Assembly: GCF_030323865.1 (NCBI RefSeq)
Contig: NZ_CP066362.1
Location: 3,224,001-3,288,000 of the forward strand
DNA: 64,000 nucleotides
DNA from: Pseudarthrobacter defluvii
GTDB taxonomy: Bacteria; Actinomycetota; Actinomycetes; Actinomycetales; Micrococcaceae
Direction of reading: 5' to 3'
Shown piece by piece: positions 27,654 through 52,537 of this stretch; the stretch's first letter is position 1; every line of letters starts with the position of its first letter. Made by a program: the position numbers and the translations under genes. The notes beneath the pieces are model-generated. The model made no database searches. It saw only the letters and a program-made list of their open reading frames with translations, and had not been told where the DNA came from.

Positions 27654-28031
27654 CTACAACAGACTGGCCAGGGCGAGGCCAGCCGCAGCGGCGCCCACAG
27701 CCGCTGCCGCAGTCCCGATTCCGTTGAGCAGGGCCAGGCCGGTGCGGCCGGACTGGATGAGCCGGACGGTTTCGAAACTGGCGGTGCTGAAGGTGGTGTA
27801 GCCGCCCAGGAACCCGGTTCCGGCAATGGCCTGCAGCTCCACGGGTGCGGCATGGGCGATGACGGCCCCCGCGACCAGGCCCAGGAGGAAGGACCCGGTG
27901 AGGTTGATGGCGATGGTCCCGACCGGCAGGGCGGTGCGCAGTTTGGAGCGGACAAGGCCGTCCACGACGAAGCGGGTCCCGGCGCCCAAGCCGCCGGCCA
28001 AACCCAGCAGGACAATAACCAGCGGATTCAC
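27654..28031 (-). CDS. crcB: Fluoride channel CrcB/FluC, second copy
   Basis: This 125-residue four-helix membrane protein starts at GTG 28031, overlapping the stop of the first crcB by 4 bases (GTGA). Family motifs are the N-terminal GLGAGTRF, then INLTGSFLLG with the conserved Asn, and GTGFLGGYTTFST in the third helix, which lines the ion path. FluC works as an antiparallel dimer; tandem genes usually encode the two halves of a heterodimer. It removes fluoride that enters as HF. Expression is probably under the riboswitch at 29234-29326. Confidence 0.93.
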   Translation of the reverse strand: MNPLVIVLLGLAGGLGAGTRFVVDGLVRSKLRTALPVGTIAINLTGSFLLGLVAGAVIAHAAPVELQAIAGTGFLGGYTTFSTASFETVRLIQSGRTGLALLNGIGTAAAAVGAAAAGLALASLL

Positions 28032-28630
28032 CGGCCCGCCTCCTGCCGGGCGGTCTGCCGTGTGGTTGCCCGGGCGTGGCGGCCGGCGGCCAACCAGATT
28101 CCTGCCACTGTTGCCCCGGCCCCGCCGATCAGGGTGGCAGCGAGGTAGAGCAGCCCGTCGGCGACCCGTCCGGCGCCCAGGAGGGTGTTGGTTTCCAGGG
28201 CGAGCGTGCTGTAGGTGGTGAACGCCCCCATGAACCCGGTCCCGGCGAGCAGGCGGATGATCCTGCGCGTTCCTGCATCGGGGCCGCGGCGCACCAGCGC
28301 TTCGAGCAGGGCACCGAGCAGGAGGGCCCCGGCCAGGTTGATGACGAGGGTGGGCAGCGGCCATCCGCCCGGTGCGGGCAACAGCATGCTGAGCCCGTAG
28401 CGGGCCAGGGCGCCAAACACGCCCCCGGCGATCACCACCAGCACATATCCGGGATGCAGGTGGACCGGGCGATGGGCACGGACTTCCCCGAGGGTCCCCG
28501 CATCGGGGTCGATATCCGCGGCGGATTGATCCCCCGTGCCACTGCCTGCCGGAAGTAGATCCTCCTCCCCTGCAGGTGCCTCCGGGGTGCGGGACGATGC
28601 TGGGGTCCCGGGAATGCGCGGTTCCGTCAT
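28028..28630 (-). CDS. crcB: Fluoride channel CrcB/FluC, first copy with N-terminal extension
   Basis: This 200-residue FluC homologue has the usual core (GVFGALARYGLS, VINLAGALLLG, GTGFMGAFTTYST) preceded by about 60 polar residues rich in Pro, Glu and Asp, about 75 residues longer overall than its partner. The extension is presumably cytoplasmic and its role is unknown. It overlaps the stress-protein gene upstream by 4 bases (ATGA) and the second crcB downstream by 4 bases (GTGA), so the three are translationally coupled. Together the two CrcB proteins likely form the heterodimeric fluoride exporter. Confidence 0.93.
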   Translation of the reverse strand: MTEPRIPGTPASSRTPEAPAGEEDLLPAGSGTGDQSAADIDPDAGTLGEVRAHRPVHLHPGYVLVVIAGGVFGALARYGLSMLLPAPGGWPLPTLVINLAGALLLGALLEALVRRGPDAGTRRIIRLLAGTGFMGAFTTYSTLALETNTLLGAGRVADGLLYLAATLIGGAGATVAGIWLAAGRHARATTRQTARQEAGR

Positions 28631-29178
28631 CGGCCCTCCTTCGGGTGGTGCTTGGTGTGGGGGGCGAGCGGGACCACCAGGACGGGGCGGTGCTGGCGGT
28701 GCGTGAGGTGGACGGCGACGGAGCCGACCAGGAGTTCCTCGAAGCGGGCGCCAAACCCGCGTTCGCGGGTACCGACGACGATGACCGAGGCGTCCGTGGA
28801 TTCCGCCAGCCGTCCCAGCGCCCTGGCGGGGTCCCCGGCCAGGGTCACGAAGGAGCAGTCGATCCCCGCCCCGCGAAGGGCGTCCGCGAGGTGCCCGGAG
28901 AGGCCGGCGCTGATGCCTTCGATGTCATCGTCAATACCGTCGGGGTCGATCGGCAGCGCCTCGACCCGCCCGTCGGGTTCCTCGGCGAGGTAGGTGGTGA
29001 CGTCAACGTAGGCGCAGATCAGTTTCACGCCCAGGCTGTAGGCCAGTTCCGCGGCGCGGTGTGCCACGGCCAGCGGCTGGCCCGGGACAACCCCCATCAG
29101 CACCGGCCCGCTCAGCTTCCGCGGATGGAAAGCATTGCTTTTGCTCGAAGGGTTGGACGGTGTCTCCGGGTCACTCAT
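28627..29178 (-). CDS. Universal stress protein, first gene of the fluoride operon
   Basis: This 183-residue single-domain UspA-type protein uses ATG 29178, which follows CAGGAGCGCAC; the frame runs further upstream into the riboswitch and is not coding there. The nucleotide-binding loop is visible as VVGTRERGF, then LLVGSVA and the final strand RPVLVVPL, so ATP binding is likely. A polar N-terminal tail of about 20 residues precedes the fold. It overlaps the first crcB by 4 bases. Being behind a fluoride riboswitch, it is a candidate fluoride-stress protein, an association worth noting. Confidence 0.88.
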   Translation of the reverse strand: MSDPETPSNPSSKSNAFHPRKLSGPVLMGVVPGQPLAVAHRAAELAYSLGVKLICAYVDVTTYLAEEPDGRVEALPIDPDGIDDDIEGISAGLSGHLADALRGAGIDCSFVTLAGDPARALGRLAESTDASVIVVGTRERGFGARFEELLVGSVAVHLTHRQHRPVLVVPLAPHTKHHPKEGR

Positions 29179-29233
29179 GTGCGCTCCTGTCGCATGGGGC
29201 AGGAAAACCGGGCCGGGATGCGGGCATGGCTCG

Positions 29234-29326
29234 CCTACCTTCGTATCAGCAAAGGTAGGAACCATCAGCCAGGGGGCGGTTCGAACACAGCGTCCTGCGA
29301 AGTGTTCCGGCGGGATCCATCACCGT
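29234..29326 (-). promoter_or_regulatory. Fluoride (crcB) riboswitch with overlapping hairpin
   Basis: Read on the minus strand from about 29326: GGTGATGGATCCCGCC, an inserted hairpin with GAACAC/GTGTTC, then AACCGCC, then GGCTGATGGTTCCTAC. These are the conserved blocks of the crcB RNA motif in the right order. GGATCC near the start can pair with GGTTCC near the end. The last block overlaps a perfect 8-bp stem, CCTACCTT/AAGGTAGG (29234-29241 with 29252-29259), that would compete with the aptamer helix and so can act as the switch. The downstream genes are usp, crcB and crcB. Confidence 0.85.
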
Positions 29327-38515: not shown

Positions 38516-39244
38516 TCAGGACTCGAAGAAGGTGCTTGTGGCAGAGCCGTCGATACCGGCAACGACCGAGCGGGCGACGTCGTACAGCTTTTCGTTGCGC
38601 CTGCTTGAGACGTCGCGGAGCAAATTGAAGGCTTCCTCTCCGGAGCAGCGGCTCTGGGCCATGATGATGCCCCGCGCCATGTCTATGGCAGTCCGGTGGC
38701 TCATTGCTGCCTCAAGGTCAACTGCCTTCAGTTCCGCCCCGGCAATCCTCAGCCCCAGCCGAAGCGCACGGGCGGCTACCTGGGCGAACTCCCCGGCATC
38801 CTTCGAGACTTCCCCGGTGAACACTCCGGCACCCGCGGCAAAGAAGTTCAAGGCTGCCGACGCTTCGCTGCCCAAATCGAGCGGAACGCCAAGGACGCTG
38901 TCAAAGCTCGTGGCTTCCAATTCCTTCCGGAAGGCCGGCCACCGTGCATCGGATGGGGCATCCAGGAGGGCAGGTTCCCCGCTCTCCAGCGCATCAGTAC
39001 ATGGCCCGTCTGCCAGGCGCTGCTCATGGCCGTCCAGCAGGATTGCCTCATCATCGCTGCCCGCGATGGTGGGGGGCCGCCTTCTCCGGTAAAGGGTGAC
39101 GGCACATTCGACCTGCGTACCCGCGGTCCTGGTCATTGCCGCCGCAGCGATACCGGTGATGCCCTCCAGGAGTCCCCTGATGTCGTCCATGTCGGCAACA
39201 AGATCGTGCAACTGCTCGAAATTACTCGCATCGTCACGTTCCAT
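38516..39244 (-). CDS. GAF and ANTAR domain regulator
   Basis: This 242-residue soluble protein has a GAF domain over about residues 25-165, with the GPCTDAL segment typical of actinobacterial GAF-ANTAR proteins. It is followed by the RNA-binding ANTAR domain (about 175-228: LEAAMSHRTAIDMARGIIMA, EEAFNLLRDVSSRRNEKL). It would sense a ligand and prevent transcription termination at paired hairpins in target leaders. It is convergent with the MFS gene (8-base gap). Its targets are not evident. Confidence 0.9.
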   Translation of the reverse strand: MERDDASNFEQLHDLVADMDDIRGLLEGITGIAAAAMTRTAGTQVECAVTLYRRRRPPTIAGSDDEAILLDGHEQRLADGPCTDALESGEPALLDAPSDARWPAFRKELEATSFDSVLGVPLDLGSEASAALNFFAAGAGVFTGEVSKDAGEFAQVAARALRLGLRIAGAELKAVDLEAAMSHRTAIDMARGIIMAQSRCSGEEAFNLLRDVSSRRNEKLYDVARSVVAGIDGSATSTFFES

Positions 39245-39315: not shown

Positions 39316-40326
39316 TCAGCCCGCCGGCGCAACGAACCGCCGGATCTCCTCTGCCATCCGCTGAGCCTGCGTCCAGTGCAGGTAGTGCCCGCCTTCCAGC
39401 GGCAGGACCTGGTGCCGGGTGACATTCTTCAGCAGGTTCTCCGCGGCGGCGGTCTTGGTGGCAGTCCTGTCATTCTTTTCGTCGGCAACAAAGGCCAGGA
39501 CTGGCAGGTCGTCGGGATAGGTGACGCCCCTAAGGGCGGCGGCGTTGTTCGCGATGCGGGCAGTTTCATCCGCCACGGCAGGATTGCCGATGTTCCACAG
39601 CATCATGGTGCGCATCCGATGCAGCTCCTCATCCGTATAGGCGGTGCTGTCCGGGTCCACGAGGCCCGGGGCCACCGCTGCAACCATGCGGACCAACCCG
39701 GTGGCTGCCACCAGCTTGATCCAGTTGATGCCCGGCTGCGGCTCCGCCACGGGCCCGTCGCCGGGCTTGGGAATGGTGGCATCGATGCCCACTACCGCGG
39801 AAACCTCTGAGCGGTACCGATTGGCGTAATCCAGCAGGTAGAACCCGGCAATGGAATGGCCCGCCAGGATGTAGGGCTGCCGGACCTGGAGCTTGGCCAG
39901 CACCTCGTGCAGCTCGTTGCTGATGTGCTCGTTGGTCCGGGCACTGGCCTCCATGTCGCTGTAGCCGTACCCAAACCCTTCCACCACAATGACGTCTAAG
40001 CCCTTGAGCTCGCGGATCAAGGGCGCGAAGTCCAGTCCGGGGGCCGCGGTCCCCAGCCCACTGAGGAGGATAATGGGCTGGCCCTGGGCCGTCCCGCCGT
40101 CGTTCCCGCCCCTGACCACATTCAGGGATCCGCCGGCCACCGCCACCCGCTCGCCGTAGGGCGCCGTGGTTGCCTTCTCCCGCTGCTCCAGGAGCAGGTT
40201 GGCAACGGTGGAAACGAGGACCAGCCCAAGGACAACCAGCGCCGCGATCCCCAGGCGGCGCGGCCAGCGCCGTCGCCGCCGTGGCTTCACCGGGTCCTGC
40301 CCGCGGTCTTTCACCGGGGTTCCCAC
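39316..40326 (-). CDS. Membrane-anchored alpha/beta hydrolase, last gene of the ten-gene operon
   Basis: This 336-residue hydrolase has a basic start (KPRRRRRWPRR) and one membrane helix at about 25-46, so the catalytic domain is outside the membrane. The nucleophile is S158 in LAGHSIAGF; the base is the His of EGGHYLHW near the C-terminus. It starts 7 bases after the acyl carrier protein stop, as the final gene of the leftward operon from 49360. It could be a thioesterase or lipase-type enzyme acting on the product of the pathway; no substrate is known. Confidence 0.82.
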   Translation of the reverse strand: MGTPVKDRGQDPVKPRRRRRWPRRLGIAALVVLGLVLVSTVANLLLEQREKATTAPYGERVAVAGGSLNVVRGGNDGGTAQGQPIILLSGLGTAAPGLDFAPLIRELKGLDVIVVEGFGYGYSDMEASARTNEHISNELHEVLAKLQVRQPYILAGHSIAGFYLLDYANRYRSEVSAVVGIDATIPKPGDGPVAEPQPGINWIKLVAATGLVRMVAAVAPGLVDPDSTAYTDEELHRMRTMMLWNIGNPAVADETARIANNAAALRGVTYPDDLPVLAFVADEKNDRTATKTAAAENLLKNVTRHQVLPLEGGHYLHWTQAQRMAEEIRRFVAPAG

Positions 40327-40333
40327 CGCAGCG

Positions 40334-40576
40334 TCACCCGCGTGCAGCGACGTAGGTGACCAGCCCGTCCACGGTGGCCACCGCAGGATAGTCGGCCTCC
40401 GGAATGTCCACGCCGGTGGTTTCCGCGATGACCTCCACCAGGCGGAGGAAATCCAGCGAGTCCAGTTCCAGGTCCTGGCGCAGCCTTGCGCCGCCCTCCA
40501 GGTCTTCGGGCTCGACGTCGGGCGCTACTTTCCCGATCGCCGCCTCCACCGCCTGGCGCGCAGCCTGGTCGTTCAC
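40334..40576 (-). CDS. Stand-alone acyl carrier protein
   Basis: This 80-residue acidic helical carrier has the phosphopantetheine attachment serine S40 in LELDSLDFLRLVEVI. It is not in a fatty-acid or polyketide cluster: it lies 22 bases after a 2-oxoacid dehydrogenase E2 gene and 7 before a membrane hydrolase gene. This suggests the operon loads an acyl group, perhaps made by the dehydrogenase or the acyl-CoA ligase, on to a dedicated carrier. No ketosynthase or acyltransferase gene is present nearby. Confidence 0.9.
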   Translation of the reverse strand: MNDQAARQAVEAAIGKVAPDVEPEDLEGGARLRQDLELDSLDFLRLVEVIAETTGVDIPEADYPAVATVDGLVTYVAARG

Positions 40577-40598
40577 CGTTCCTCCTCGCTTGCAGCTT

Positions 40599-42083
40599 TC
40601 ACAGGTTTTCCGGCGCCTGCAGCAGTTCGTCGATGCGGGCCAGGAACCGGCCTCCGCGCAGCCCGTCGCTCACCCGGTGGTCAGCGGAGAGGGTGGCGAT
40701 GGCGGCGTGCCGAATGCCGAGCATCCCGTTGTGCGCCCACGGCTGCTCCAGGACTTTCCCGAACCCCACCATGGCCACCTGCGGCGGATAGATCACCCCG
40801 TACACGCTTTCGACGCCCAGATCCCCCAGGTTGGTCACCGTGATGGTGGGATCGGCCATCTCCGCCCGCTGCAGCCGGCCCGCCCTGGCCCGGCTGACCA
40901 GGTCGCGCAGCTGGTCCATGAGTTCGTCCAGGCTGAGGGTGTCGGCGTCGTGCAGGGCCGGGGCCACCAGCCCGCCGTGCCGCAACGCCACGGCGACGCC
41001 CAGGTGCACCTCACTGCTGGGATGGAACGCGCCCTTACTGAAGAAGCCGTTCATGTCCGGCACCTCCTTGGCCGCGAGCGCGGTGGCCTTTAGCAGCAGG
41101 GCGGACGGCACCAGCCGCGACGTCACCGGCCGCTGCTGGTTCGCCGCCCGCATCCAGGCCATCGCAGCCGCCAGGTCCAGCGTGGTGGACAGATAGTAGT
41201 GCGGGATCTCCTTCTTGGACCGGGACATCAGTGCGCCGACCGCCTGCCGCAGGCTCTCCGCCTTGCCGCCGGTCGCCGTCGGGCGTTTCCGCTGTGGCGC
41301 CTCTTCCGCGGCTTCGTGCGTGGGTTCCGGGAGTTGGGCTTCCGACGGCGGTGCTTCCGACGGCTTTTCCGCCATTTGTTCGCGGGGTGGCCGTCCCCTG
41401 GGCGGGACCGCGGAGAGGACGTCGTCCTCCGTCACCGCACCGCCGGGACCGGTCCCGTTGACGCCCTGCAGGTTCACGCCCAGTTCGGCCGCCAGCCGCC
41501 GCGCCAGCGGCGATGACCGGACCCTCCTGGCTTCGGCGGGCGCCGGGGCCTCCGGCACCTCAGGCGTGGGGGGTTCTTCTGGCGCCGCTGGGGTGACGGA
41601 CGCAGCCGCGGCGCGTTCGACGTCGGCCCGCACCACCTCGCCGCCGGGCCCGCTCCCGGTGATGCGTCCGACGTCGACCCCCAGCGTGTGCGCAAGGTGC
41701 CGGACCGGCGGGGCGGCCTTGGCGGCCGGCTCCGGGTGCCCGGCCTCGGTACCGGGGGGAGCGGGCGTTGGCTCCCGGGCTTCCAAAGGTGAGCGGGCGT
41801 CGGGGGAAAGGGGGCCGGAAGTGAGCGGGGGTTGCGGGAGTTCGGCGGGGGTGGCGGTGATCCGGGCGATGGGGGTGCCCACGTCCACGGTGTCGCCGAT
41901 GTCCACCAGGAATTCGGCCACCACACCTTCCTGGAAGGACTCGATGTCCATCACGGTCTTGTCCGTGTCCACCGCCGCCACCAGGTCGCCCTTGTGGACA
42001 TAGTCCCCGGGCTTGACCAGCCATTCCACCACCTTGCCGTGCTCCATGTCCGCGCCCAGGGACGGCATCCGGAACTCAGCCAC
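40599..42083 (-). CDS. 2-oxoacid dehydrogenase E2 (dihydrolipoyl acyltransferase) with two subunit-binding domains
   Basis: This protein has 494 residues from GTG 42083, overlapping the E1 beta stop by 8 bases. Its order is: a lipoyl domain at about 1-77 with lipoyl K42 in VDTDKTVMD; a Pro/Ala linker; a subunit-binding domain at about 125-158 ([19 protein letters not shown]); a second at about 189-225 ([19 protein letters not shown]); a linker; and the catalytic domain with H469 in [10 protein letters not shown]. Two binding domains are unusual, as most E2 proteins have one. It transfers the acyl group from E1 to CoA. No E3 gene is in the operon, so E3 must come from elsewhere. Confidence 0.9.
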
Positions 42084-43068
42084 CGGCGCCCACGGCCCTT
42101 CGTGCGGCCGCCATGACCCGCTCCACCGACGGCAGCGCCGCCTGCTCCAGGTGCTTGGCGTACGGGACGGGCACCTCCTCGCTGCACACCCGCTCCACCG
42201 GCGCGTCCAGGTCGAAGAACGCCTGCTCGCTGATCCGGGCGGCGATCTCCGCAGAGATGCTGCCGCTGCGCCACCCCTCGTCCACCACCACGGCCCGGTG
42301 CGTCCTGGCCACACTGTCCAGGAGGGTGTGCGTGTCCAGCGGGCGGAGGGTGCGCAGGTCCACCACGTCAGTCCCGATACCCTCGCCGGCCAGCTGGTCC
42401 GCGGCCTCCAGCACCAGGGGCAGCGTGCCGCCGTAGGTGATGAGGGTGACCGTGTCCGCGCTTCCGTCCGCCTGCCGCAGGAGCGCCGCCTTGTCGATGC
42501 CGACGGCCCCGGCGTCCTCGTCGAGCTCGCCGGCCACGTTGTACAGCGAGCCGTGCTCGAAAATCAGCACCGGGTCCGGGTCCTGCAGTGCGGTCCACAG
42601 CATGCCGCGGGCGTCCGCCAGGGTGGCCGGGGCCAGGATCCGCAGCCCGGGGATGTGCGCGTACCAGCCCTCCAGGCTGTGCGAGTGCTGGGCACCCAGC
42701 TGCCGGCCCGCGCCGGTGGTCATCCGGATGACGATGGGAACGTTGAACTGGCCGCCGGACATGTGCAGCAGGGTGGCGGCATTGTTGATGATCTGGTCCA
42801 GCGCCAGCAGGCTGAAGTTGACCGTCATGATTTCGACGACGGGCCGCATGCCGCCCAACGCCGCGCCGATGCCTGCACCCACGAACCCGGATTCGGAGAG
42901 CGGGGTATCGCGGATCCGCTCCGGTCCGAATTCCTCCAGCAGGCCCAGGCTGACGGCGAAGCTGCCGCCGTACCGGCCCACGTCCTCACCCATCAGGAAC
43001 ACGCGTTCATCGCGCTGCATCGCGTCGCGGAGGGCCGCGCGCATGGCTTCCCGGTACGTGGTTTTCAT
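42076..43068 (-). CDS. 2-oxoacid dehydrogenase E1 beta subunit
   Basis: This 330-residue transketolase-type beta subunit has the [10 protein letters not shown] motif, [20 protein letters not shown] and the [16 protein letters not shown] segment that contacts the cofactor. It forms a heterotetramer with E1 alpha, whose gene overlaps its start by 4 bases. The partner substrates could be pyruvate, acetoin or branched-chain 2-oxoacids; the sequence features visible do not settle this. It is part of the ten-gene operon. Confidence 0.92.
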
Positions 43069-44120
43069 CCTGCCGCCCCGCCTTTCCTTGACCCTTCTCC
43101 GCTTCCTGCCGTGCCGCCGTCGCTTCCGTCATCCGCCCGGTCGCTGTACACGAACCGCGCAAGCTCGGACACCGGTTCCGGCGTCCCGTTTTCGGCGAAT
43201 CCGACGGCGGTGCTGATCTCCGCGTCCACGTCCGCCTGCAGATCTGCCCACTCATCGTCCGGCAGCTGCCCGGCGGCCTGCATGGCGCCCTGCAGCAGGC
43301 TGATGGGGTCCCGTTCCATCCACTGCGCCACCTCGGACTTCTCCCGGTAGAGCTCGGGATCGAACATGGAGTGGGCGCGGAAGCGGTAGGTGCGCAGTTC
43401 CAGGAAGTGCGGGCCGCCGCCGGACCGCACCGCGTCCACCGCGCGCCGGGCGGCTTCCTCCACGGCCAGCACGTCCATGCCGTCCACCGCCCACGCCGGT
43501 ATTTCGTAGGCCGCCGCCTTGAGCGCGATGTCGGTCTGCGATTCGGAGCGCCCCAGCGCGGTTCCCATGGCGTAGAGGTTGTTTTCGCAGCAGAACAGCA
43601 CCGGCAGCTGCCACAGCGCGGCCAGGTTCATGCTCTCGTGGAACTCCCCTTCTGCAACGGCGCCCTCGCCGAAGAAGCAGACGGTAACCTGCTGGCGCCC
43701 GGCCATCCGGTCCGCGAGCGCCAGGCCGACGGCCAGCGGCAGTCCGCCGGCCACGATGGCGTTGCCGCCGTAGAAGCGGGTGGCGGCGTCGAAGAGGTGC
43801 ATGGAACCGCCGCGCCCACGGCAGCAGCCCTCGGCGTGGCCGTACATCTCGGCAAGGATGGCACCGGCGGAGACACCGCGCAGCAGGGCATGCCCGTGTT
43901 CGCGGTACGTGGCCACCACGGCGTCCTCCGGCGCCAGGGTCTCCATCACCCCGGCCGCCACGGCTTCCTCGCCGATGTAGACGTGCAGGAACCCGCGGAT
44001 CTTGGCCGCGCTGTACAGCTCGATGCATTTCTCCTCGAGGCGGCGCACCCGCAGCATCTGCCGCAGGAGGTGCATCGCGTGCCCCGCATCCGGAACGCCC
44101 TGGTTCCTGAGGGTGGTCAT
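43065..44120 (-). CDS. 2-oxoacid dehydrogenase E1 alpha subunit
   Basis: This 351-residue thiamine-diphosphate subunit starts at ATG 44120, overlapping the acyl-CoA ligase stop by 4 bases. Family segments are [36 protein letters not shown] and [10 protein letters not shown]. The cofactor motif reads [18 protein letters not shown] and ends CENN, so the usual GDG is GEG here. The tail (after about 320) is Gly/Ser-rich. It decarboxylates a 2-oxoacid and passes the acyl group to lipoyl-E2. The closeness of [10 protein letters not shown] to acetoin and pyruvate types leaves the substrate open. Confidence 0.92.
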
Positions 44121-45952
44121 GGCAGGTCCTTCAGGGTAGCTGCCGGTCCCGCCGGGGATTCCAGCGTGGACGTGTCGCCTTCCGGCAGCCCCAGTTCCCG
44201 TGCTTTCAGGAGCCGGCGCAGAATCTTGCCGCTGCGGGTCTTGGGCAAGGTGGCGGTGAAGTCCAGCAGCCTGGGCGCGACGGCGGCGCCCAGGCGTCTC
44301 CGGGCGAAGCCGATGATGTCCAGCTGCAGCTCCTCGCTGGGTTCGTGGCCGGCCCTGAGTTCCACGAAGGCCTTCACCACTTCCCCGGCCACCGGATCCG
44401 GCACGCCGATCACCCCTGCTTCTGCCACGGCCGGGTGTTCCATGAGGCAGCTTTCCACCTCGAAGGGGCCGATCAGGTGGCCGGAGGACTTGATCACGTC
44501 GTCGCCGCGGCCAACGAACCAGAAGTAGCCGTCGCCGTCGCGCTTTGCCAGGTCCCCGGTGAGGTACCAGCCGCCGGCGAAGCAGCGCCGGTACCGCTCC
44601 TCCTCGTTGAGGTAGCCGCGGAACATCGAGGGCCAGCCGGGGCGCAGCGCCAGCTCCCCCATGGTGTCCGGCTCTTCGACGAGGACGGCCTGGCCGTCCT
44701 TGATGATGGCTTTGCCGTCGGCGTCGCGGGCCACCAGGGCAGCCTCGATGCCGGGCAACGGCCTGCCCATGGAGCCGGGCCGAATGTCCATGGCCGGATA
44801 GTTGGCAATCATGATCCCGCCGGTCTCGGTCTGCCACCAGTTGTCATGCACCGGCAGGCCCAGCACATCCTGGCCCCACACCACCGCCTCCGGGTTCAGC
44901 GGCTCCCCCACACTGGCTATGAAGCGCAGTGCGGAGAGGTCATGACCGGCAGCCCGTTCGCCACCGGCCTTCATGAGCATCCGCAGGGCCGTGGGCGCGG
45001 TGTACCAGACGGTGACGTGCTGCTCCGCAAGGATCCGGTACCAGCGGTCGGCGTCCAACTCCTCCTGGTCCACGATGGCGGTGACCCCGTGCACCAGCGG
45101 CGCGATGATGCCGTAGGACATGCCGGTCACCCAGCCGGGATCCGCGGTGCACCAGTAGATATCGTCCGGGTGCAGGTCCAGCGCGAAGCGGCCGGTGGCG
45201 TAGTGGGCGGCGACGGCGTCGTGGACGTGGATGGCTCCCTTCGGCGTGCCCGTGGTGCCGCTGGTGAAGTGCAGCAGGGCCATGTCCGCGGGCTGCGTGT
45301 CCGCGATCTCCTCGATGGGGTCAACCTGGGCCAAAAGTGCGGCCAGGTCCAGGGTCCCCGGTTCCGGCCGGCCGTCCGCGTCCACCAGCAGGACGTGGCG
45401 GAGTTCGGGCAGGGCGTCCCGCACCGGCGCCACCTTTTTGCGGTACAGCGCCCTGGTGGTCACCAGTGCCCTGCCGGTACCCAAGTGCAGCCGCTGCCGC
45501 ACCGGCTCGGGGCCAAAGGCGGAAAAGAGCGGGCAAAAGACGCTGCCGTTCTTGAAGGTGCCCAGGACGGCGACATACAGATCCGGACTGCGGCCCAGCA
45601 ATGAGAAGACCCGCTCGCCGCGCCCCACGCCCAGGCCCTGCAGCACTGCAGCGAACCTTCCGGAGAGCTCCGCAAGGTGCCCGTAGCTTAAGGACCGGGT
45701 GCCGCCGTCGGCCTTGACGAAACGCAGCGCCTCCCTGTCGCCGCGGCCTTCTGCCACGTGGCGGTCCACGGCCTCGTACGCGATGTTAAGCCCCCGGCCG
45801 CCGGGCAACCCGGACAGCGCCTGGCGCGCCTGGTCCCAGGTGAAATCGTTCCGGGCGGCATCGTAATCCGGCATGTTCGGTGGCACCGGGAAGGCAGCCA
45901 CGTCCTTGGTGATGGCGGCCCAGCGCGTGGAACCTTCAACTCCGGTGGTCAT
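44117..45952 (-). CDS. Acetyl-CoA-synthetase-like acyl-CoA ligase
   Basis: This 611-residue adenylate-forming enzyme has the P-loop [12 protein letters not shown] at 228-239, then the WWQTETGG motif that shapes a small acyl pocket (acetate or propionate), the hinge [20 protein letters not shown], and the catalytic lysine K576 in [12 protein letters not shown]. It activates a carboxylate with ATP and CoA in the cytoplasm. It is coupled to the E1 alpha gene by a 4-base overlap and lies 15 bases from the erythromycin-esterase-like gene. It may recover free acid that the dehydrogenase or hydrolase releases, or load the neighbouring acyl carrier protein through CoA. Both are inference. Confidence 0.92.
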
Positions 45953-45967
45953 GCTGCTCCTTTATGG

Positions 45968-47299
45968 CTAGAACCCCGTGGGCTCGGTTTCGAGTTCGGG
46001 TTCACCGGGCTGGTACTCGTGGTGCAGCGGCCGGAGCGCCTCGGTCCGGGGATGCCAGAACAGGGCGTCGTAGCGTTCCCCCATTCGCGTGGGAACGTAA
46101 TTGCCCCGTTCCCGGTGCGGGTTGTACACCACCCCGATGGCGCGGTGTCCACGCCAGGACGTGAGCCAGGGGCCCGTCCTGTCGGCCCCGAACACCAGGA
46201 CGGACGGTTCCCCCAGCGCCTCGTTCAGGAGGTCCTCATGGCTCCCGTGCACGGCGGCCGGAACATCCATCACCCACTCCGGCGAGCCCCATGACTCCGC
46301 GGCGGTGACGGAGCCGGCGTAGGACGCGAAGCCCGCCAGCACCACTTCCCCGGGGTGCCGCTGGCGGACCAGCTGCCCAATGTTGACCATGCCGTCGTGC
46401 GCCATGTCCGTGGCCCGGGCATCACCCACGTGCGTGTTGTGCGCCCACACCAGCCCCTTGGATGCCGGTCCGTGGTGGCGCGCAACCCGGTCGATGGTGT
46501 CGCTCATGTGGTGATCCCGGATGTTCCAGGACTGCTGGTCGCCGCGCACCATGGTCCGGTAGTAGCGCTCGGCGTTGGTGGCCACGATGGCGTTTTGGAT
46601 GGCGTCGAAGGCAGCGGGATCGTCCTGCATCCGGCCCAGCGTCCGCCGCCGGACCTCAGCCAGCAGCGCTACAACGTCCGCCTCGCAGGACTGCGGCACC
46701 AGCCGGCTGCTCAAGGCATACCGCTGGGGGTCCTCGCGGTACGGGATGAAGCAGTGCCAGGCCTGCAGTGCCGCCGGGAGGGCTTCCTCGGCGTTGGCCT
46801 CCAGCCAGGTGAAGATTTCCCGGAGCGAATCCCACAGGGAGTAGACATCCAGGCCGTAGAAGCCCGTGCGCTGGTGTGCGGGAAGGTCCAGGTTCCAGTC
46901 ACGCAGCCAGGTGAGGAACCCGGCCACCTCCTGGTTGGCCCACATCCACGTGGGCCAGCGCTCAAAGCCGGACAACAGCCGGCGGGCATCCATGTCCTGG
47001 CCGGCCTCTCCCCTGACCCAGCGGTTGATCCGCCAGCAGTCCGGCCAGTCCCCTTCCACGCCGATCCACGTGAAACCGTACTCCTCGATCAGCCGCCGGC
47101 TGAGCCGCGCCCGCCAGTGGTAGTACTCCCGGGTGCCGTGCGATGCCTCGCCCAGGCACACGAACCTGGCGGGGGCAGCGAGGCGGACCAGGGGTTCAAG
47201 GTCGTCTGCTGTGGCCAGGGGGTGGGCAAGGCGGCGGATCTGGCCGGTTTCAGCCGCCCGTTCCGCCGCCCGCTCCGCCCATCGGCCGTCAGCGTTCAT
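45968..47299 (-). CDS. Erythromycin-esterase-family protein
   Basis: This 443-residue protein begins its conserved region with VCLGEASHGTREYYHWRARL (E51, H54) and WIGVEGDWPDCWRINRW. Later come WAHNTHVGDARATDM and a long helical middle with RYYRTMVRGDQQSWNIRD. These match the EreA/EreB-like hydrolase family, whose non-resistance members have unknown substrates. Mycobacterium tuberculosis Rv2030c, a dormancy-regulon protein, carries a phosphoribosyltransferase domain joined to such a domain. Here the two kinds of domain are on adjacent genes that overlap by 11 bases. A role in antibiotic resistance is not implied by the context. Confidence 0.88.
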   Translation of the reverse strand: MNADGRWAERAAERAAETGQIRRLAHPLATADDLEPLVRLAAPARFVCLGEASHGTREYYHWRARLSRRLIEEYGFTWIGVEGDWPDCWRINRWVRGEAGQDMDARRLLSGFERWPTWMWANQEVAGFLTWLRDWNLDLPAHQRTGFYGLDVYSLWDSLREIFTWLEANAEEALPAALQAWHCFIPYREDPQRYALSSRLVPQSCEADVVALLAEVRRRTLGRMQDDPAAFDAIQNAIVATNAERYYRTMVRGDQQSWNIRDHHMSDTIDRVARHHGPASKGLVWAHNTHVGDARATDMAHDGMVNIGQLVRQRHPGEVVLAGFASYAGSVTAAESWGSPEWVMDVPAAVHGSHEDLLNEALGEPSVLVFGADRTGPWLTSWRGHRAIGVVYNPHRERGNYVPTRMGERYDALFWHPRTEALRPLHHEYQPGEPELETEPTGF

Positions 47300-48644
47300 T
47301 CCTGGCCTCCGGCATGGACCGCCCCACCGGCGCGGGCAGGAGGTACTGCCGGAACCAGTCCGCGGCAAGGGTGGCGGCCATGGCCAGGGCGCCGGGCTCT
47401 TCGAACAAGTGGGTGGCGCCCGGGACGATCTCCAGCCGGGTGGGGGCCTGCATCTGGGCCATGGCCTGGCGGTTGAGGGCCAGCACCTGGGTGTCCGCAC
47501 CGCCGACGATCAGGAGGGTGGGTGCCTTCACGGCGGCCAGCCGCGGGCCGGCCAGGTCCGGCCGTCCACCCCGGGAGACCACGGCTTCAACCTGGGCCCC
47601 GGGCTCTGCGGCGGCCCACAGCGCGGCACCTGCACCGGTGCTGGCCCCGAAGTAGCCGATCCGGCCGGCGGAGCCGTCGTGCCTGGCCTCCAGCCAATGG
47701 GTTGCGGAGGAAAGTCGGTGCGCCAGCAGGCCGATGTCGAACACGTTGGCCCGGTTGACCTCTTCCTCCGGAGTCAGCAGGTCAAGGAGCAGGGTGCCCA
47801 GGCCGGCCCCGTGCAGCACGGAGGCGACGAAGCGGTTGCGAGGGCTGTGCCGGCTGCTGCCGCTGCCGTGCGCGAAGAGAACGGTCCCGTCGCACCTGGC
47901 CGGAAGGTACAGGCTGCCGCGCAGCACCACCCGTCCTGCCGGGATTTCCACATCCTGTTCCAGGCTGCCGTCCCCGCCTTCCTCGGTACGGTGGCGGGCC
48001 GGGAGGGCGGCGGCGTCCAGCAGCTGCACCACCTCGCCATCCTCCGTGGGCGAGAAGTCGTGGTAGTAGTAGCCCACGGCCTGGAAGTCCTGGGGAGAGA
48101 GCAGGCAGACGACGTCGTCCGGTTCCTTCAGCTCCACGATGGCGCGGGCGGGTGCCACCGGAACGGCAAGGATCACTTTCGCCGCGCCTAGGTGCCGGGC
48201 CACCTGGCAGGCTGCCCTGGCGGTGGACCCGGTGGCGATGCCGTCATCCACGATGATCACCGTGCGGCCGGCGAGGTTGATGCGCGGGCGTCCCTGCCGG
48301 AACCGCGCCACCCTGCTTTCCAGCAGTGCGCGTTCCTGCCGTTCCACCTGCTGCAGGTCCTCCTGGGAAACCCGTGCCATGGAAATGGTGCGTGGATCCA
48401 GGACGCGGACCCCGCCCTCCCCGATGGCCCCCATGGCCACTTCGGGCTGGAACGGAACCCCCAGCTTCCGCACCACAATGACGTCCAGCGGAGCTTCGAG
48501 GGCCTTGGCTACCTCGAACGCCACCGGGACACCGCCGCGGGGCAGGCCCAGCACCACCACGTCCCGTCCGCGCAGGCCTGCAAGCCGTTTGCCCAGCCGC
48601 CGCCCGGCGTCGGGCCTGTCATGAAACGCAACCATAGCTGTCAC
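47289..48644 (-). CDS. Phosphoribosyltransferase fused to dienelactone-hydrolase-like domain
   Basis: This 451-residue two-domain protein has a type I phosphoribosyltransferase at residues about 1-215, with the PRPP loop VDDGIATGSTA (132-142) and LGLPRGGVPVAFEVA. Residues about 225-440 form an alpha/beta hydrolase with LFAHGSGSSRHSPRN, nucleophile elbow GYFGASTGAG, and a C-terminal His in GATHLFEE. The fusion resembles Rv0571c of M. tuberculosis, also in the dormancy regulon. It overlaps both neighbours (4 bases with the Trypco1 gene, 11 with the erythromycin-esterase gene). What base or ester it uses is not known. Confidence 0.9.
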   Translation of the reverse strand: MTAMVAFHDRPDAGRRLGKRLAGLRGRDVVVLGLPRGGVPVAFEVAKALEAPLDVIVVRKLGVPFQPEVAMGAIGEGGVRVLDPRTISMARVSQEDLQQVERQERALLESRVARFRQGRPRINLAGRTVIIVDDGIATGSTARAACQVARHLGAAKVILAVPVAPARAIVELKEPDDVVCLLSPQDFQAVGYYYHDFSPTEDGEVVQLLDAAALPARHRTEEGGDGSLEQDVEIPAGRVVLRGSLYLPARCDGTVLFAHGSGSSRHSPRNRFVASVLHGAGLGTLLLDLLTPEEEVNRANVFDIGLLAHRLSSATHWLEARHDGSAGRIGYFGASTGAGAALWAAAEPGAQVEAVVSRGGRPDLAGPRLAAVKAPTLLIVGGADTQVLALNRQAMAQMQAPTRLEIVPGATHLFEEPGALAMAATLAADWFRQYLLPAPVGRSMPEARNER

Positions 48645-48988
48645 CCGCCATGCATGATTTCTTCCCCGGGCGCCGCTGCCGCGGCAGGGGCCCAGGACAT
48701 GCGGAGGACAAAGTGGGCGTCGGAACTGCTCTTGGCGATCACCGCCCCTGCGTCCCCCGCGAGTTTCACGCCGAATTCGATTTCGATCTGTTCGGGGGTA
48801 AGTTCCGCCATGGCCTCCAGTGCTGCGCGGGCGGCCGGGCGGACGCTGGCGAGTGCATCTTCCAGGCGCCTGCCCGTATCCAGGATTCCCTGCTCGTTCC
48901 GTGCCGGCCGGTCCACGCCGTAGCTGTCGTCGGCCGCTTCAACGAGCACCGTCCCGGATCCCACTTCGTACCGCAGCACCTCAGTCAT
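48641..48988 (-). CDS. Trypco1-domain protein (CU044_2847 family)
   Basis: This 115-residue protein shows the Trypco1 pattern: a first strand pair, then RRLEDALASVRPAARAALEAMAEL, IEIEFGVKLAGDAGAVIAKS and a last strand DAHFVLRMSW. Trypco1 domains usually accompany trypsin-like or effector domains in conflict or stress systems; here the domain is alone, as second gene of the ten-gene operon. No protease gene is nearby. It may be an adaptor for the enzymes encoded downstream. Confidence 0.82.
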   Translation of the reverse strand: MTEVLRYEVGSGTVLVEAADDSYGVDRPARNEQGILDTGRRLEDALASVRPAARAALEAMAELTPEQIEIEFGVKLAGDAGAVIAKSSSDAHFVLRMSWAPAAAAAPGEEIMHGG

Positions 48989-49003
48989 GGCGGATTCCTT
49001 TTA

Positions 49004-49360
49004 CTAATGCGAGACGCGGTAGGTCCGGCGGACGTCGGTGCTGGGCTTAATGGCCACCGCTGTTACCACCAGTGCCACTGCCCCTGCGATCCATGACGTC
49101 CAGGCAGCCCCCGTCGCTCCCGTGTACGTTCCGAGCCATGGCGAGAGGACCAGTCCTGCTGCGAGGATGGCCTGCACGTATTCCATGGCCGGAGTTCCCG
49201 GCATGGCCAGGTTGATGATGCCGCTGACCACCAGGAGCCCGCCAAAGACGAGCATGAGGGTGGTGGACATGCTTTGCTGCCGCGTGAACAGGACCGCCAC
49301 CGCGGTAAAGAGTCCGGCGGCAACCGTTACGTAGTCCTGCCACCGATACCACTTCTTCAC
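49004..49360 (-). CDS. SPW-repeat membrane protein, first gene of the ten-gene operon
   Basis: This 118-residue protein starts at GTG 49360 with AAAGGAAAAGTCA upstream. Four hydrophobic segments are visible; the repeat unit begins WYRWQDYVTVAAGL and ends near LVLSPWLG, the SPW signature. The family is common in actinobacteria and methylotrophs, of unknown function, and often next to stress genes. It lies 15 bases before the Trypco1 gene, so the operon 49360 to 39316 probably starts here. Confidence 0.85.
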   Translation of the reverse strand: MKKWYRWQDYVTVAAGLFTAVAVLFTRQQSMSTTLMLVFGGLLVVSGIINLAMPGTPAMEYVQAILAAGLVLSPWLGTYTGATGAAWTSWIAGAVALVVTAVAIKPSTDVRRTYRVSH

Positions 49361-49471
49361 TGACTTTTCCTTTCTGTGTGGGGCGGCTGCGCCCTGTGCG
49401 CTTCCACCCCGCGGGCCTTTGTTTCCCGCGATTTAAGTCAACGCCTGCCACTGTTCCGGGTGTAGGGCAGA

Positions 49472-49500
49472 AAGACCTAGGGCAGGGCAGGCAGGGTCTT
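49472..49500 (-). promoter_or_regulatory. Inverted repeat in the divergent region of the ten-gene operon
   Basis: The gap 49361-49614 separates the leftward operon from the lipoprotein phosphatase gene. It contains AAGACC (49472-49477) and GGTCTT (49495-49500), a 6-bp inverted repeat flanking several AGGGCAGG copies. It could be an operator for either direction. No clear -10/-35 pair was found on the minus strand, though TTGACT occurs near 49440. Confidence 0.3.
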
Positions 49501-49614: not shown

Positions 49615-50832
49615 GTGAACAGAAGATCAGTCCGTTCCTCCGCTGCCGTGCGGCGTCGTTTCCCCACCTTGCTGCCCCTGCTGGCCCTGCTCCTGTCCGC
49701 GCTGGTGGCCTGCCAGGCGCCTACGCCGGCCCCGGCTCCGCAAACCGCCACGCCGTCCGGCACTGCCACCCCCTCCGGCGCTGCCTCGCCTTCCCCAAGC
49801 GCATCGGCAACTCCCACGCTGCCCCCAAGCTCCGCTGCAAACGCCGCAAAGCCCGCCGGCACACCCCAGCACATCTTCGTGATCAACCTGGAAAACAAGG
49901 GGTATGACAGCGTCTGGGGTGACAACTCCCCCGCGCCGTACCTCTCCGGGACACTGCGGAAGAAGGGCGTGCTGCTGAAGAACTACTACGGCATAGCGCA
50001 CAACTCATTGCCCAACTACCTGGCCCAGATCTCCGGCCAGCGGCCCAACGACAGCACGGTGCTGGACTGCCATACCTACACCGAGTTCAACGCCACGGGC
50101 ACCGACCCGGACGGCACGCTGCAGGGCGACGGCTGCGTCTACCCGGAGGACACCCAGACCGTGGCCGGGCAGCTGGCCGCGCAGGGCAAAACCTGGAAGG
50201 GCTACATGGAGGACATGCAGCAGCCGTGCGAGCATCCGGTCCTGGGCGAGGGCGACAACCACATCAAGGCCACCCCGGAAGAGCAATACTCCACGCACCA
50301 CAACCCCTTCATGTACTTCCGTTCCATCACCTCCTCCCCGGACTGCGCCCGGAACGTGGTCAACTTCTCCGCCCTCAAGGACGACCTGAAATCCATCGAC
50401 ACCACCCCGAACCTTGCCTACATCACGCCCAACCTGTGCCATGACGGGCACGACGGCACCTGCGCCGACGGCTCCGAGGGCGGCCTGGGGACGGCGGACG
50501 CCTGGCTCAAGGAGCAGGTGCCGGCCATCCTGTCGTCCCCGGCGTACAAGCAGGACGGCATGATGGTGATCACCTTCGATGAGGCGGAGGGCGACTCGAC
50601 CGGACCGTCCGAACCGGCCAGCGCTGTTCCGGCCGGCGGCACGGCGGGCGGCAAGGTGGGTGCGCTGGTCCTGTCCCCGTTCGGCAAGGCTGGGGCCTCA
50701 TCGGACCGGGCCTACAACCACTACAGCCTGCTGGCCAGCATCGAGGACTTCTTCCACCTCCCCCGCCTCGGCCTTGCCGGCGACCCCGGCGTCAGGACCT
50801 TCGGCGACGACGTCTACCGGAAGGAATCCTGA
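49615..50832 (+). CDS. Lipoprotein phosphatase (alkaline phosphatase/phosphoesterase family)
   Basis: GTG 49615 (405 residues) follows GCGGAGGCC at the right distance. A basic start leads to a hydrophobic core and the lipobox L-V-A-C33, so it is a lipoprotein tethered outside the membrane; a Pro/Thr/Ser-rich spacer follows. The catalytic part opens HIFVINLENKGYDSVWG, has GIAHNSLPNYLAQISGQRP, and ends with VITFDEAEGDSTGPSEP and YNHYSLLASIEDFF, all typical of the phosphoesterase family that includes acid phosphatases. It is followed after one base by a phospholipase C-type gene, so the two are co-expressed, likely to release phosphate from outside sources. Confidence 0.88.
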   Translation: MNRRSVRSSAAVRRRFPTLLPLLALLLSALVACQAPTPAPAPQTATPSGTATPSGAASPSPSASATPTLPPSSAANAAKPAGTPQHIFVINLENKGYDSVWGDNSPAPYLSGTLRKKGVLLKNYYGIAHNSLPNYLAQISGQRPNDSTVLDCHTYTEFNATGTDPDGTLQGDGCVYPEDTQTVAGQLAAQGKTWKGYMEDMQQPCEHPVLGEGDNHIKATPEEQYSTHHNPFMYFRSITSSPDCARNVVNFSALKDDLKSIDTTPNLAYITPNLCHDGHDGTCADGSEGGLGTADAWLKEQVPAILSSPAYKQDGMMVITFDEAEGDSTGPSEPASAVPAGGTAGGKVGALVLSPFGKAGASSDRAYNHYSLLASIEDFFHLPRLGLAGDPGVRTFGDDVYRKES

Positions 50833-50833
50833 C

Positions 50834-52537
50834 GTGCGGCTTTTGCAGAACGGACGACGCCGGGCCCTGCTGGCAGGTGCCGCAGTGCTGGCTTTGGTGA
50901 TCCTCGCCGTCGTCCTTCCCACCGCGTTCCGAGGCATGGCGCCGGCGCAGGAGCCGGCCGCAAACGCGCCCGCGGCACCGCCGGCGGACCAGGCACCTGT
51001 TGGCACTCCAGCCACCGGCGCCCCCGCAGGGATCTCGAAAATCAAGCACGTGGTGATCATCACCCAGGAAAACAGGTCCTTCGATAGCTACTTCGGCACC
51101 TATCCCGGAGCCGACGGGATCCCCATGAAGGACGGCAAACCCACGGTGTGCGTCCCGGACCCCGCGGACGGCAGCTGCGCCAGGCCCTTCTACAACTCGG
51201 CGGACAGCAACGCCGGCGGCCCGCACAGCCACGCCGACGCCACCGCTGACATCAACGGCGGAGCCATGGACGGGTTCGTGGCCCAGGCGGAGAAGGGCCT
51301 GTCCGGCTGCGGCGCCACCAGCACCAAATGCCAGTACAGCAACACCATGCCCACCGACGTCATGGGCTACCACGACGGGCGGGACCTGCCCAACTACTGG
51401 GCCTATGCGCAGAATTTCACGCTCCAGGACCATCTGTTCGCCTCCGCCGCCTCCTGGAGCCTGCCGGCGCACCTGTACCTGGTCTCCGAATGGTCAGCCA
51501 AGTGCAGCAAGGCCGGGGACCCGTCGTCATGCGTAGATGCGCTGCAGGACCCGGACCCCGAACCCGAGCCGCAGATCATCAAGGACACCCTGATCGGCAA
51601 GTGCCAGGCCGGGATGGACCTGGACCCGTGCCGGGAGGCGCTGGAAGCCGCCGGCATCGACCCGGGCCTCGCCGCCCAAATTGACCAGATCATCGGCACC
51701 AGCTGCAAGCCCACCGATTCCTACGCCGTCTGCCAGGCTGCGGTGGATGCGGCCCCCGTGTCCGATGGCCTGAAGAAGAAGCTCACCGAGGCCGCCAAGA
51801 AGCTGGAACTGCCGGACTACGCCTGGACGGACCTGACATTCCTGCTGCACAAGCACCAGGTGCCCTGGGCCTACTACGTGTTCAACGGCACCGAACCCGA
51901 CTGCCGCAACGACGCCGCCACCTGCGACCCCGTGAAGCAGGACGCCAAAACCCCCGGCCTGTGGAACCCGCTGCTGTACTTCGACACCGTGAAAGAGGAC
52001 GGCGAGCAGGGCAACATCAAGCCGCTGAGCGGTTTCTACGACGCCGCCAGGAACGGCACGCTGCCCGCCGTCACCTGGGTGGCGCCCACCGACAAAGTCA
52101 GCGAGCACGCCCCGGCAAAGATCAGCACCGGGCAGGCCTACGTGGCCGGGCTGATCAATGCGGTGATGAGCGGCCCGGACTGGGACAGCACCGCCATCTT
52201 CCTCAGCTGGGATGACTGGGGCGGGTTCTATGACCACGAGACCCCGCCGGTGGTGGACAACAACGGCTACGGGCTGCGCGTCCCAGGCCTGGTGATCAGC
52301 CCCTATGCGAAGAAGGGGTTCATCGACCACCAGGTGCTCAGCCACGACGCCTACTTCAAGTTCATCGAGGACGACTTCCTGGGCGGCGAGCGCATCGACC
52401 CCGCCACGGACGGACGGCCGGACGCCAGGCCCGATGTCCGGGAGAACAACCCGCAACTGGGCGACCTTGCCAAGGCCTTCGACTTCAACCAGGCACCGCT
52501 GCCGCCGCTGATCCTGCCCAACGCGACGACGTACTGA
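50834..52537 (+). CDS. Secreted phospholipase C / acid phosphatase family enzyme (paralogue 2)
   Basis: GTG 50834 begins one base after the stop of the lipoprotein phosphatase. The 567-residue protein has a membrane segment at about 11-30, a Pro/Ala-rich spacer, and the catalytic opening [18 protein letters not shown] (N80). Further motifs are [32 protein letters not shown] and [14 protein letters not shown]. It parallels the enzyme at 23744-25411 from the catalytic start to the shared C-terminus NATTY, including the cysteine-rich insertion. The pair therefore looks like a duplication. It acts outside the membrane on phospholipids or other phosphate esters. Confidence 0.9.
   Translation: MRLLQNGRRRALLAGAAVLALVILAVVLPTAFRGMAPAQEPAANAPAAPPADQAPVGTPATGAPAGISKIKHVVIITQENRSFDSYFGTYPGADGIPMKDGKPTVCVPDPADGSCARPFYNSADSNAGGPHSHADATADINGGAMDGFVAQAEKGLSGCGATSTKCQYSNTMPTDVMGYHDGRDLPNYWAYAQNFTLQDHLFASAASWSLPAHLYLVSEWSAKCSKAGDPSSCVDALQDPDPEPEPQIIKDTLIGKCQAGMDLDPCREALEAAGIDPGLAAQIDQIIGTSCKPTDSYAVCQAAVDAAPVSDGLKKKLTEAAKKLELPDYAWTDLTFLLHKHQVPWAYYVFNGTEPDCRNDAATCDPVKQDAKTPGLWNPLLYFDTVKEDGEQGNIKPLSGFYDAARNGTLPAVTWVAPTDKVSEHAPAKISTGQAYVAGLINAVMSGPDWDSTAIFLSWDDWGGFYDHETPPVVDNNGYGLRVPGLVISPYAKKGFIDHQVLSHDAYFKFIEDDFLGGERIDPATDGRPDARPDVRENNPQLGDLAKAFDFNQAPLPPLILPNATTY

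Follow-up and report, generated by a model that had tools for sequence, protein, structure and literature searches.

A window of 64,000 nucleotides from Pseudarthrobacter defluvii (the whole stretch of DNA that was analysed, G000:C1:3224001-3288000, within a 4.5-Mb genome whose nearest named relatives are Arthrobacter and Pseudarthrobacter) carries a tightly packed ten-gene operon built around a conserved five-gene core, acsA-E1a-E1b-E2-acp. The core genes are assigned to an AMP-forming acetate-coenzyme A (CoA) ligase (AcsA), the E1 alpha, E1 beta and E2 components of a pyruvate dehydrogenase (PDH), and an acyl carrier protein (ACP). It is tentatively proposed, at slightly less than an even chance, that this is a low-oxygen (DevR/DosR-type) operon whose core is a second, specialised PDH working with its own ACP, AcsA linking the acetyl group to acetate. 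A broader version is doubtful as a whole: that a widespread branch of PDH uses a dedicated ACP instead of CoA, that with AcsA it takes pyruvate through acetyl-ACP to acetate and ATP, and that its control is of the DosR type in Actinomycetota and of the FNR type in Proteobacteria.

In textbook PDH, CoA is the acceptor of the acetyl group. If the proposal is true, acetyl units have a second carrier in primary metabolism and dormant aerobes have an unrecognised survival route; a vague list of 'dormancy genes' would become a defined reaction, assayable with a few purified proteins. In what follows, G numbers denote genomes and L numbers denote loci of the analysis; G000 is the genome of the window.

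The conserved core and its E2 clade

An earlier reading of the window, made from the sequence alone (hereafter the sequence-only reading), had described ten leftward, closely spaced genes as one unit. The packing is real. All ten open reading frames (ORFs) lie on the minus strand (39316..49360), with start codons present and no internal stops, and the spacing from the SPW gene to the membrane hydrolase gene is 15, 5, -11, 15, -4, -4, -8, 22 and 7 bases. Moreover, the ten families stand in the same order in 5/9 of the genus relatives whose operon begins with SPW (L027, L029, L032, L034 and L035), with two imperfections: the hydrolase match of L029 is partial (86 bits), and in L032 two separate ORFs make up the Ere-like gene. 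However, the unit does not consist of ten equal parts. The conserved unit is acsA-E1a-E1b-E2-acp, whereas the SPW, Trypco1, phosphoribosyltransferase (PRTase)-hydrolase, erythromycin-esterase-like (Ere-like) and membrane hydrolase genes are variable passengers.

This distinction comes from three sets of loci. Relatives were found by an E2 search in 59 genomes, and 19 loci were read. Outside the SPW-first group, seven other loci of the genus set show acsA-E1a-E1b-E2-acp (acsA being absent from L039, which lies on a short contig), and the core is present in three order relatives. The membrane hydrolase is matched in six of the nine SPW-first relatives, in one of them only partially, and Trypco1 or the PRTase-hydrolase stands beside the core in L040 and L042. 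The second set, 47 loci, came from an E2 scan of genome contigs; four of these loci are from genomes already in the first set. For the out-of-sample set, E2 served as the sole query against 396 Actinomycetota and 398 Pseudomonadota genomes, drawn evenly, and matched at E 1e-60 in 17 and 14 of them, respectively (including G000, G037 and G063); the module is rare and patchy, at about 4% of genomes as a lower bound. From this search 28 new loci were read, none near-identical to earlier ones.

An ACP follows E2 in 19/19 loci of relatives, in 46 of the 47 genome-contig loci and in 27/28 out-of-sample loci (25 by phmmer; L213 and L225 by reading frames). The one-strand order acsA-E1-E2-acp is found in 18/19, 41/47 and 23/28 loci, the last figure being 21 by script plus L213 and L225. 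Contig ends truncate eight of the 12 exceptions (L039, L059, L062, L067, L214, L217, L219, L221), leaving L068, L077, L091 and L211 as true exceptions; L091, from a Vermiphilus metagenome-assembled genome (MAG), has neither acsA nor ACP. The 41 ordered loci include Streptomyces, Catelliglobosispora, Noviherbaspirillum, Vibrio, Marinobacterium, Rhodobacteraceae, relatives of Bdellovibrio and the planctomycete Uabimicrobium. The ordered core is thus present in members of the Actinomycetota, Alpha-, Beta- and Gammaproteobacteria, in Bdellovibrio-like bacteria and in one planctomycete, and outside close relatives it mostly stands without the full 'stress-type' gene set. Nine annotated plasmid loci, chosen partly by annotation among 40 listed of 666 matching records and so not a count, carry the same genes. 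In two of these islands, both alphaproteobacterial (L099, L100), a single 2-kb gene replaces E1 alpha and E1 beta, as would be expected if the two were fused. Comparison of gene order in other genomes had been proposed as a check in the sequence-only reading; the order of the five-gene core is kept, and the loss of order that would speak against the operon was not seen. More interesting than the ten-gene operon is this core, a PDH clade linked with an ACP of its own and with an acetate ligase.

The E2 proteins of the module form a lineage of their own. A maximum-likelihood tree was built from 88 E2 catalytic domains, 62 labelled as module and 26 housekeeping (drawn from ten genomes, that of the window included), after rows more than 93% identical had been thinned and the poorly aligned L006 and L128 dropped. 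In this tree, 61 module E2s form a single clade (support 100/100, stem 1.51) apart from the 26 housekeeping E2s. The 62nd, L091, groups among the housekeeping E2s and is also the one without an ACP. The clade arises partly by construction, as module rows were gathered by similarity to the window's E2; the ACP link does not. With the window ACP as query and flanks of up to about 1.5 kb per side, no ACP match was found beside 28 other E2-type loci. Therefore, the ACP is a companion of this particular E2 clade rather than of lipoylated enzymes generally.

Both proteins stay under every NCBIfam cut-off listed for them, E2 reaching at best 263.5 of 445 bits. Nevertheless, functional residues are kept: across 67 aligned rows, the lipoyl Lys42 of E2 is conserved in 96%, Thr417 in 90%, His469 in 100% and Asp473 in 96%, the last three being equivalent to E. 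coli Ser551, His603 and Asp607 according to the available part of PMC8421416. The ACP carries Asp39-Ser40-x-Asp42 in 66/66 aligned rows, the serine being the predicted site of phosphopantetheine attachment, and scores 34.7 bits against the fatty-acid-synthesis model TIGR00517, below its cut-off of 70.45. The genome holds another, stronger PP-binding protein (51.7 vs 31.0 bits), presumably the fatty-acid ACP, in agreement with the earlier description of the operon's ACP as private. The window E2 (40599-42083) shows two consecutive matches to the peripheral E3-binding domain; most bacterial E2s carry one. Two candidate features were discarded. The motif IPHYYL is distinct against 28 housekeeping rows and common to the best solved E2 matches, and was not used as evidence; an apparent fused QncL-like E2 in G042 (an 820-aa frame) was dropped, as the ORF list there resembled the ordinary separate arrangement.

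The substrate assignment rests on the other core members. E1 passes the pyruvate models and E2 lies under the cut-offs of the acetoin, branched-chain and 2-oxoglutarate dehydrogenase families, so that these three were rejected; for example, E2 scores 79.7 bits against the acetoin model NF011457, whose cut-off is 307. The NCBIfam scores thus bear out the earlier view that the cluster departs from the standard pyruvate, acetoin and branched-chain types. In AcsA, the motif WWQTETG, which we take to be the acetate-pocket motif, is kept in at least 95% of 57 aligned rows. The product had been proposed to be an unspecified acyl group; it is better read as an acetyl thioester because the enzymes are pyruvate- and acetate-type.

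Predicted oxygen-linked regulation

Footprinting upstream of the SPW gene revealed a DosR/DevR-like box, AGGTCTTTCTGCCCT, which is unchanged in 20 aligned upstream regions, 17 of them distinct (three pairs are from the same genome). The box fits the weak DosR consensus at 8/9 fixed positions. A relaxed box pattern, NKGNCTTTCNGCCCT, occurs at 8 sites in the window's genome, compared with 4 for the reversed pattern: the operon, three sites just before USP genes (C1:2249754, C1:2270395 and C2:65449) and four others. This pattern was relaxed after the two chromosomal USP sites had been seen, whereas the first box search, which gave six sites with at most two mismatches, had already found the plasmid-contig USP site. 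The latter USP gene (L187, G000:C2:58000-72000) is on the 175-kb second contig, and the DosR-like box GGGACTTTCTGCCCT lies 79 bases upstream of its Usp domain. Related boxes stand upstream of acsA in L036, in L040 and L057 (the same genome twice) and, with two mismatches, in L043, and upstream of Trypco1 in L063. Most actinobacterial loci outside the SPW-first group are without a DosR-like box.

A DevR-type regulator and a heme-type DevS sensor are predicted in the same genome. The best solved match of its DevR is M. tuberculosis DevR (223 bits; the next 126), and the closest matches of its DevS are the heme GAF domains of DosT/DevS, with HPPMRTFLGVPVR kept. Both genes belong to an island that also holds six USP ORFs, Hsp20, PpsA and DUF4389. 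DevS-like kinases (E 1e-60) are present in 20/20 genomes with the module and in 14/39 others (Fisher 6e-7, kinship ignored); for the genus alone the figures are 17/17 with the module and 9/20 without (2e-4, kinship again ignored). The window's genome has two DevS-like kinases, one in L185 (G000:C1:2245000-2264999) and one, 64% identical, at G000:C1:1117174-1120799, near another GerE-type regulator and paired box-like sites at 1120732 and 1120785.

Outside the Actinobacteria, a different oxygen regulator is indicated. Perfect FNR boxes, TTGAYNNNNRTCAA, precede acsA in 6/26 non-actinobacterial loci (about 410 bases around the acsA start), with 7 boxes in 10440 bases as opposed to 24 in 502658 bases elsewhere (Poisson 1e-6). 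In 13 new Pseudomonadota loci, such boxes occur in 5/13, at 6 in 5330 bases vs 10 in 241683 (1e-7). These contrasts are somewhat flattered, as such sites may be more frequent in intergenic DNA than within genes. A sigma-54 scan gave a single match with one mismatch (L065), and four terminator-like matches are no more than were seen in shuffles. Taken with the DosR-like boxes of Actinobacteria, the FNR boxes make it appear that two unrelated oxygen regulators serve the same module. The hypoxia or stress link put forward in the sequence-only reading is supported, as a prediction, by the DosR-like box, the DevRS pair and the FNR boxes of other phyla.

A GAF-ANTAR regulator gene 71 bases downstream of the operon is possibly co-transcribed with it. 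A homologue is divergent from acsA in L036, L037, L038, L041 and L058. This neighbour is suggestive of an RNA-binding antiterminator tied to the module.

Proposed reaction and competing readings

The core probably acts as a 2-oxoacid dehydrogenase; ACP in place of CoA is a prediction. By family assignment, E1 would decarboxylate pyruvate and acetylate the lipoyl arm of E2. By analogy with known carrier systems, the E2 catalytic domain may then hand the acetyl group to the dedicated ACP, whose pantetheine would serve as acceptor in place of CoA or alongside it. No E3 domain was found among the ten operon proteins and 20 flanking window proteins scanned, as the sequence-only reading had stated for the operon, and because the operon holds none, it is the housekeeping E3 that is proposed to reoxidise the lipoyl arm. 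The E3 gene is also missing from many known PDH operons. AcsA would convert acetate and the acetyl thioester into one another, and most plausibly it would run so as to yield ATP (acetyl-S-carrier + AMP + pyrophosphate (PPi) -> acetate + ATP); this direction is the least certain step of the mechanism. A cell short of oxygen could thus turn pyruvate into acetate and save energy while CoA is not tied up. The SPW, Trypco1, PRTase-hydrolase, Ere-like and membrane hydrolase proteins would be co-regulated passengers of the dormancy type. Recurring PpsA genes, and the pta-type and acetate kinase genes of one island, are consistent with energy saving from phosphoenolpyruvate (PEP) and pyruvate. As for access, CoA enters the E. 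coli complex from the inner cavity through openings of 30-40 A (PMC8421416, available part). By our estimate these would in principle be wide enough for a 9-kDa ACP, if the E2 assembly is like that of E. coli. The same part of PMC8421416 names the catalytic residues and two sides of the channel, and in it no residue list was found for the ADP part of CoA.

Several observations weigh against this proposal. The catalytic residues of E2 are those of CoA-using E2s, hence CoA may still be the acceptor, and the ATP-forming direction of AcsA requires a supply of PPi. Among the loci, L211 has acsA, E1 and E2 with no ACP seen, L068 has E2 and ACP without acsA or E1, and L077, from an acidobacterial MAG, has a partial acsA match downstream of the ACP. 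On the regulatory side, the module box fits the stringent DosR consensus used for M. smegmatis, GGGACTTNNGNCCCT (PMC6448022, available part), at only 9/12 fixed positions, a level reached by 296 of 200000 random 15-mers; the strict DevR palindrome (GGGAC-N4-GTCCC with at most one mismatch, or a 20-base version with at most four) was found at none of 67 upstream regions; half of the NKGNCTTTCNGCCCT matches may be due to chance; a sigma-70 promoter scan gave no promoter-like site; and 28/39 non-actinobacterial loci are without a perfect FNR box (11/39 have one). Finally, the available parts of two papers on low-oxygen regulons give no parallel for the core: the table of example lxa proteins in PMC6127331 has phosphate acetyltransferase and PfkB and no PDH or ACP, and the OsdR paper, PMC5069765, gave no match for pyruvate dehydrogenase or acyl carrier.

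An unlikely alternative is a plain stress-induced PDH, in which E2 uses CoA and the ACP only provides octanoyl or lipoyl precursors for lipoylating this E2 (via LipB) or acts as a regulatory or structural subunit. Lipoyl assembly on E2 begins from octanoyl-ACP, which counts for this alternative. The standard His, Asp and Ser/Thr of the E2 active site, matching the E. coli residues in PMC8421416, agree with it too. In contrast, a general role in lipoylation sits poorly with the finding of no ACP match beside 28 other E2-type loci (one query, short flanks) and with a genome that already has a stronger PP-binding protein, presumably its fatty-acid ACP. If the ACP does accept acetyl, its fate could be biosynthetic: PDH and AcsA would both load the ACP, from pyruvate and from acetate respectively, and acetyl-ACP would prime a fatty-acid, polyhydroxybutyrate or acetylation pathway in dormant cells. 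FabI-like matches in 5/47 genome-contig loci, a Sulfitobacter island with fabI, pta-type and acetate kinase genes, and GNAT genes in two Rhodococcus islands lend this some colour. However, the conserved core has no ketosynthase or fixed consumer of acetyl-ACP and the FabI-like matches may be other short-chain dehydrogenases, which leaves a biosynthetic role improbable.

The three-part logic of an E1-like protein, a lipoyl/acyltransferase protein and a free ACP is shared with the quinocarcin, naphthyridinomycin and scleric acid pathways (PMC6335953, PMC7570522, available parts), so that E1, E2 and ACP might make a C2 unit for a secondary metabolite. This is very improbable here: no nonribosomal peptide synthetase (NRPS) or polyketide synthase domain was found among the 20 flanking proteins scanned, E1 passes the pyruvate dehydrogenase cut-offs, and an acetate-CoA ligase belongs to the core. 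The probability is close to negligible that the operon is a chance or decaying assembly of genes without a common function. Passengers do differ among relatives, and L068 retains only E2 and ACP, whereas the core order is preserved across phyla and out of sample. L068 is from Arthrobacter sp. ISL-72, with acsA and E1 undetected upstream of E2-ACP, and is perhaps a decaying copy of the module.

Operon features, neighbours and known systems

Across the ten genes, the Pfam assignments are SPW, Trypco1, Pribosyltran with DLH hydrolase, Erythro_esteras, AMP-binding, E1_dh, Transket_pyr/C, lipoyl with E3_binding and 2-oxoacid_dh, PP-binding and Abhydrolase.

Features of the operon and its borders, in order of transcription (positions in the window; aa, amino acids)
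Feature	Position	Strand	Remarks
DosR/DevR-like box AGGTCTTTCTGCCCT	49464..49478	-	103 bases before SPW start codon
SPW-repeat membrane protein, 118 aa, gene 1	49004..49360	-	PF03779 43.9 bits
Trypco1 domain protein, 115 aa	48641..48988	-	PF19493 81.8 bits; NF041216
Phosphoribosyltransferase + dienelactone-type hydrolase, 448 aa	47289..48635	-	PF00156, PF01738
Erythromycin-esterase-like protein, 443 aa	45968..47299	-	PF05139 377 bits; far under EreA/EreB/EreD cut-offs
AcsA-type AMP-forming acetate-CoA ligase, 611 aa, core	44117..45952	-	PRK04319 916 bits, cut-off 729
Pyruvate dehydrogenase E1 alpha, 351 aa, core	43065..44120	-	TIGR03182 443.6 bits, cut-off 393.85
Pyruvate dehydrogenase E1 beta, 330 aa, core	42076..43068	-	PRK09212 396.9 bits, cut-off 321
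ACP-associated E2, 494 aa, core	40599..42083	-	PF00364, PF02817 x2, PF00198
Dedicated acyl carrier protein, 80 aa, core	40334..40576	-	PF00550
Membrane-anchored alpha/beta hydrolase, 336 aa, optional	39316..40326	-	PF12697/PF00561
GAF-ANTAR regulator	38516..39244	-	PF03861, PF13185; 71 bases downstream of operon

Macrolide inactivation was rejected as the role of the operon: the Ere-like protein reaches 54.9 (EreB), 27.0 (EreA) and 21.4 bits (EreD) against NCBIfam cut-offs of 750-800, and 3/9 SPW-first relatives are without it. The window also holds three genes of the PF04185 phosphoesterase family (23747-25600, 49621-50829 and 50579-52534), the last two immediately upstream of the operon and divergent from it, and, roughly 10 kb away from the operon, a minus-strand USP gene that overlaps a CrcB-like gene (28030-29265).

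In raw counts over the 47 genome-contig loci, PRTase-hydrolase matches occur in 20 (12 of Arthrobacter or Pseudarthrobacter), Ere-like matches in 10 (6), USP in 9 (4), PpsA in 8 (1) and Hsp20 in 5 (0). The PRTase-hydrolase and Ere-like genes recur, differently arranged, in Bdellovibrio-like and acidobacterial loci. PEP synthase matches lie near the core in L076, L080, L083, L086, L087, L089, L212 and L230 (Vibrio, Bdellovibrio-like and others). Between them, the plasmid islands carry USP, Hsp20, FtsH, PfkB, PpsA, nicotinate PRTase, Crp/Fnr, and a GAF kinase with a response regulator.

In the literature searched, which left subscription papers mostly outside, there is no published description of the acsA-PDH-ACP block; its parts have counterparts in several known systems. 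It resembles the canonical PDH complex in that the E1 families score over their cut-offs and the lipoyl and catalytic residues are kept; it differs in an E2 of a separate clade, under the NCBIfam E2 cut-offs, and in an operon without E3 and with ACP and AcsA. With the DosR/DevR, Streptomyces OsdR and Burkholderia cenocepacia lxa regulons, as far as the available descriptions go, it shares USP, Hsp20, PfkB, phosphate acetyltransferase, the PRTase/Ere type of Rv2030c, and, as a prediction, low-oxygen control. The plasmid islands resemble the table of example lxa proteins (PMC6127331) and the OsdR regulon (PMC5069765), and the earlier statement on the domains of Rv2030c agrees with the available part of PMC4410610. 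The acsA-PDH-ACP block itself was not found in those descriptions of the three regulons.

The closest mechanistic parallels are QncN-QncL-QncM, SclQ1-4 and NapB/C/D, each of which combines a thiamine pyrophosphate-dependent E1-like protein, a lipoyl/acyltransferase protein and a separate ACP (PMC6335953, PMC7570522, in the parts available, as for the statements that follow). Transfer from an E2-type protein to a free ACP is described for QncL/QncM and proposed for SclQ1-4 (PMC6335953). SclQ1 and DinT are 76 aa long, and the qnc, scl and nap systems deliver a C2 acyl unit to the ACP (PMC6335953, PMC7570522). Compared by description only, those systems are proposed to use ketose phosphate and to feed an NRPS, whereas the module has a pyruvate-type E1, an acetate-CoA ligase and a predicted low-oxygen setting. 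For the AcsA step, the available part of PMC4992975 describes in Syntrophus aciditrophicus PPi-dependent ATP formation from acetyl-CoA by an AMP-forming synthetase working toward acetate. The Syntrophus route is CoA-based, whereas the ligase of the module is linked to a dedicated ACP and a PDH.

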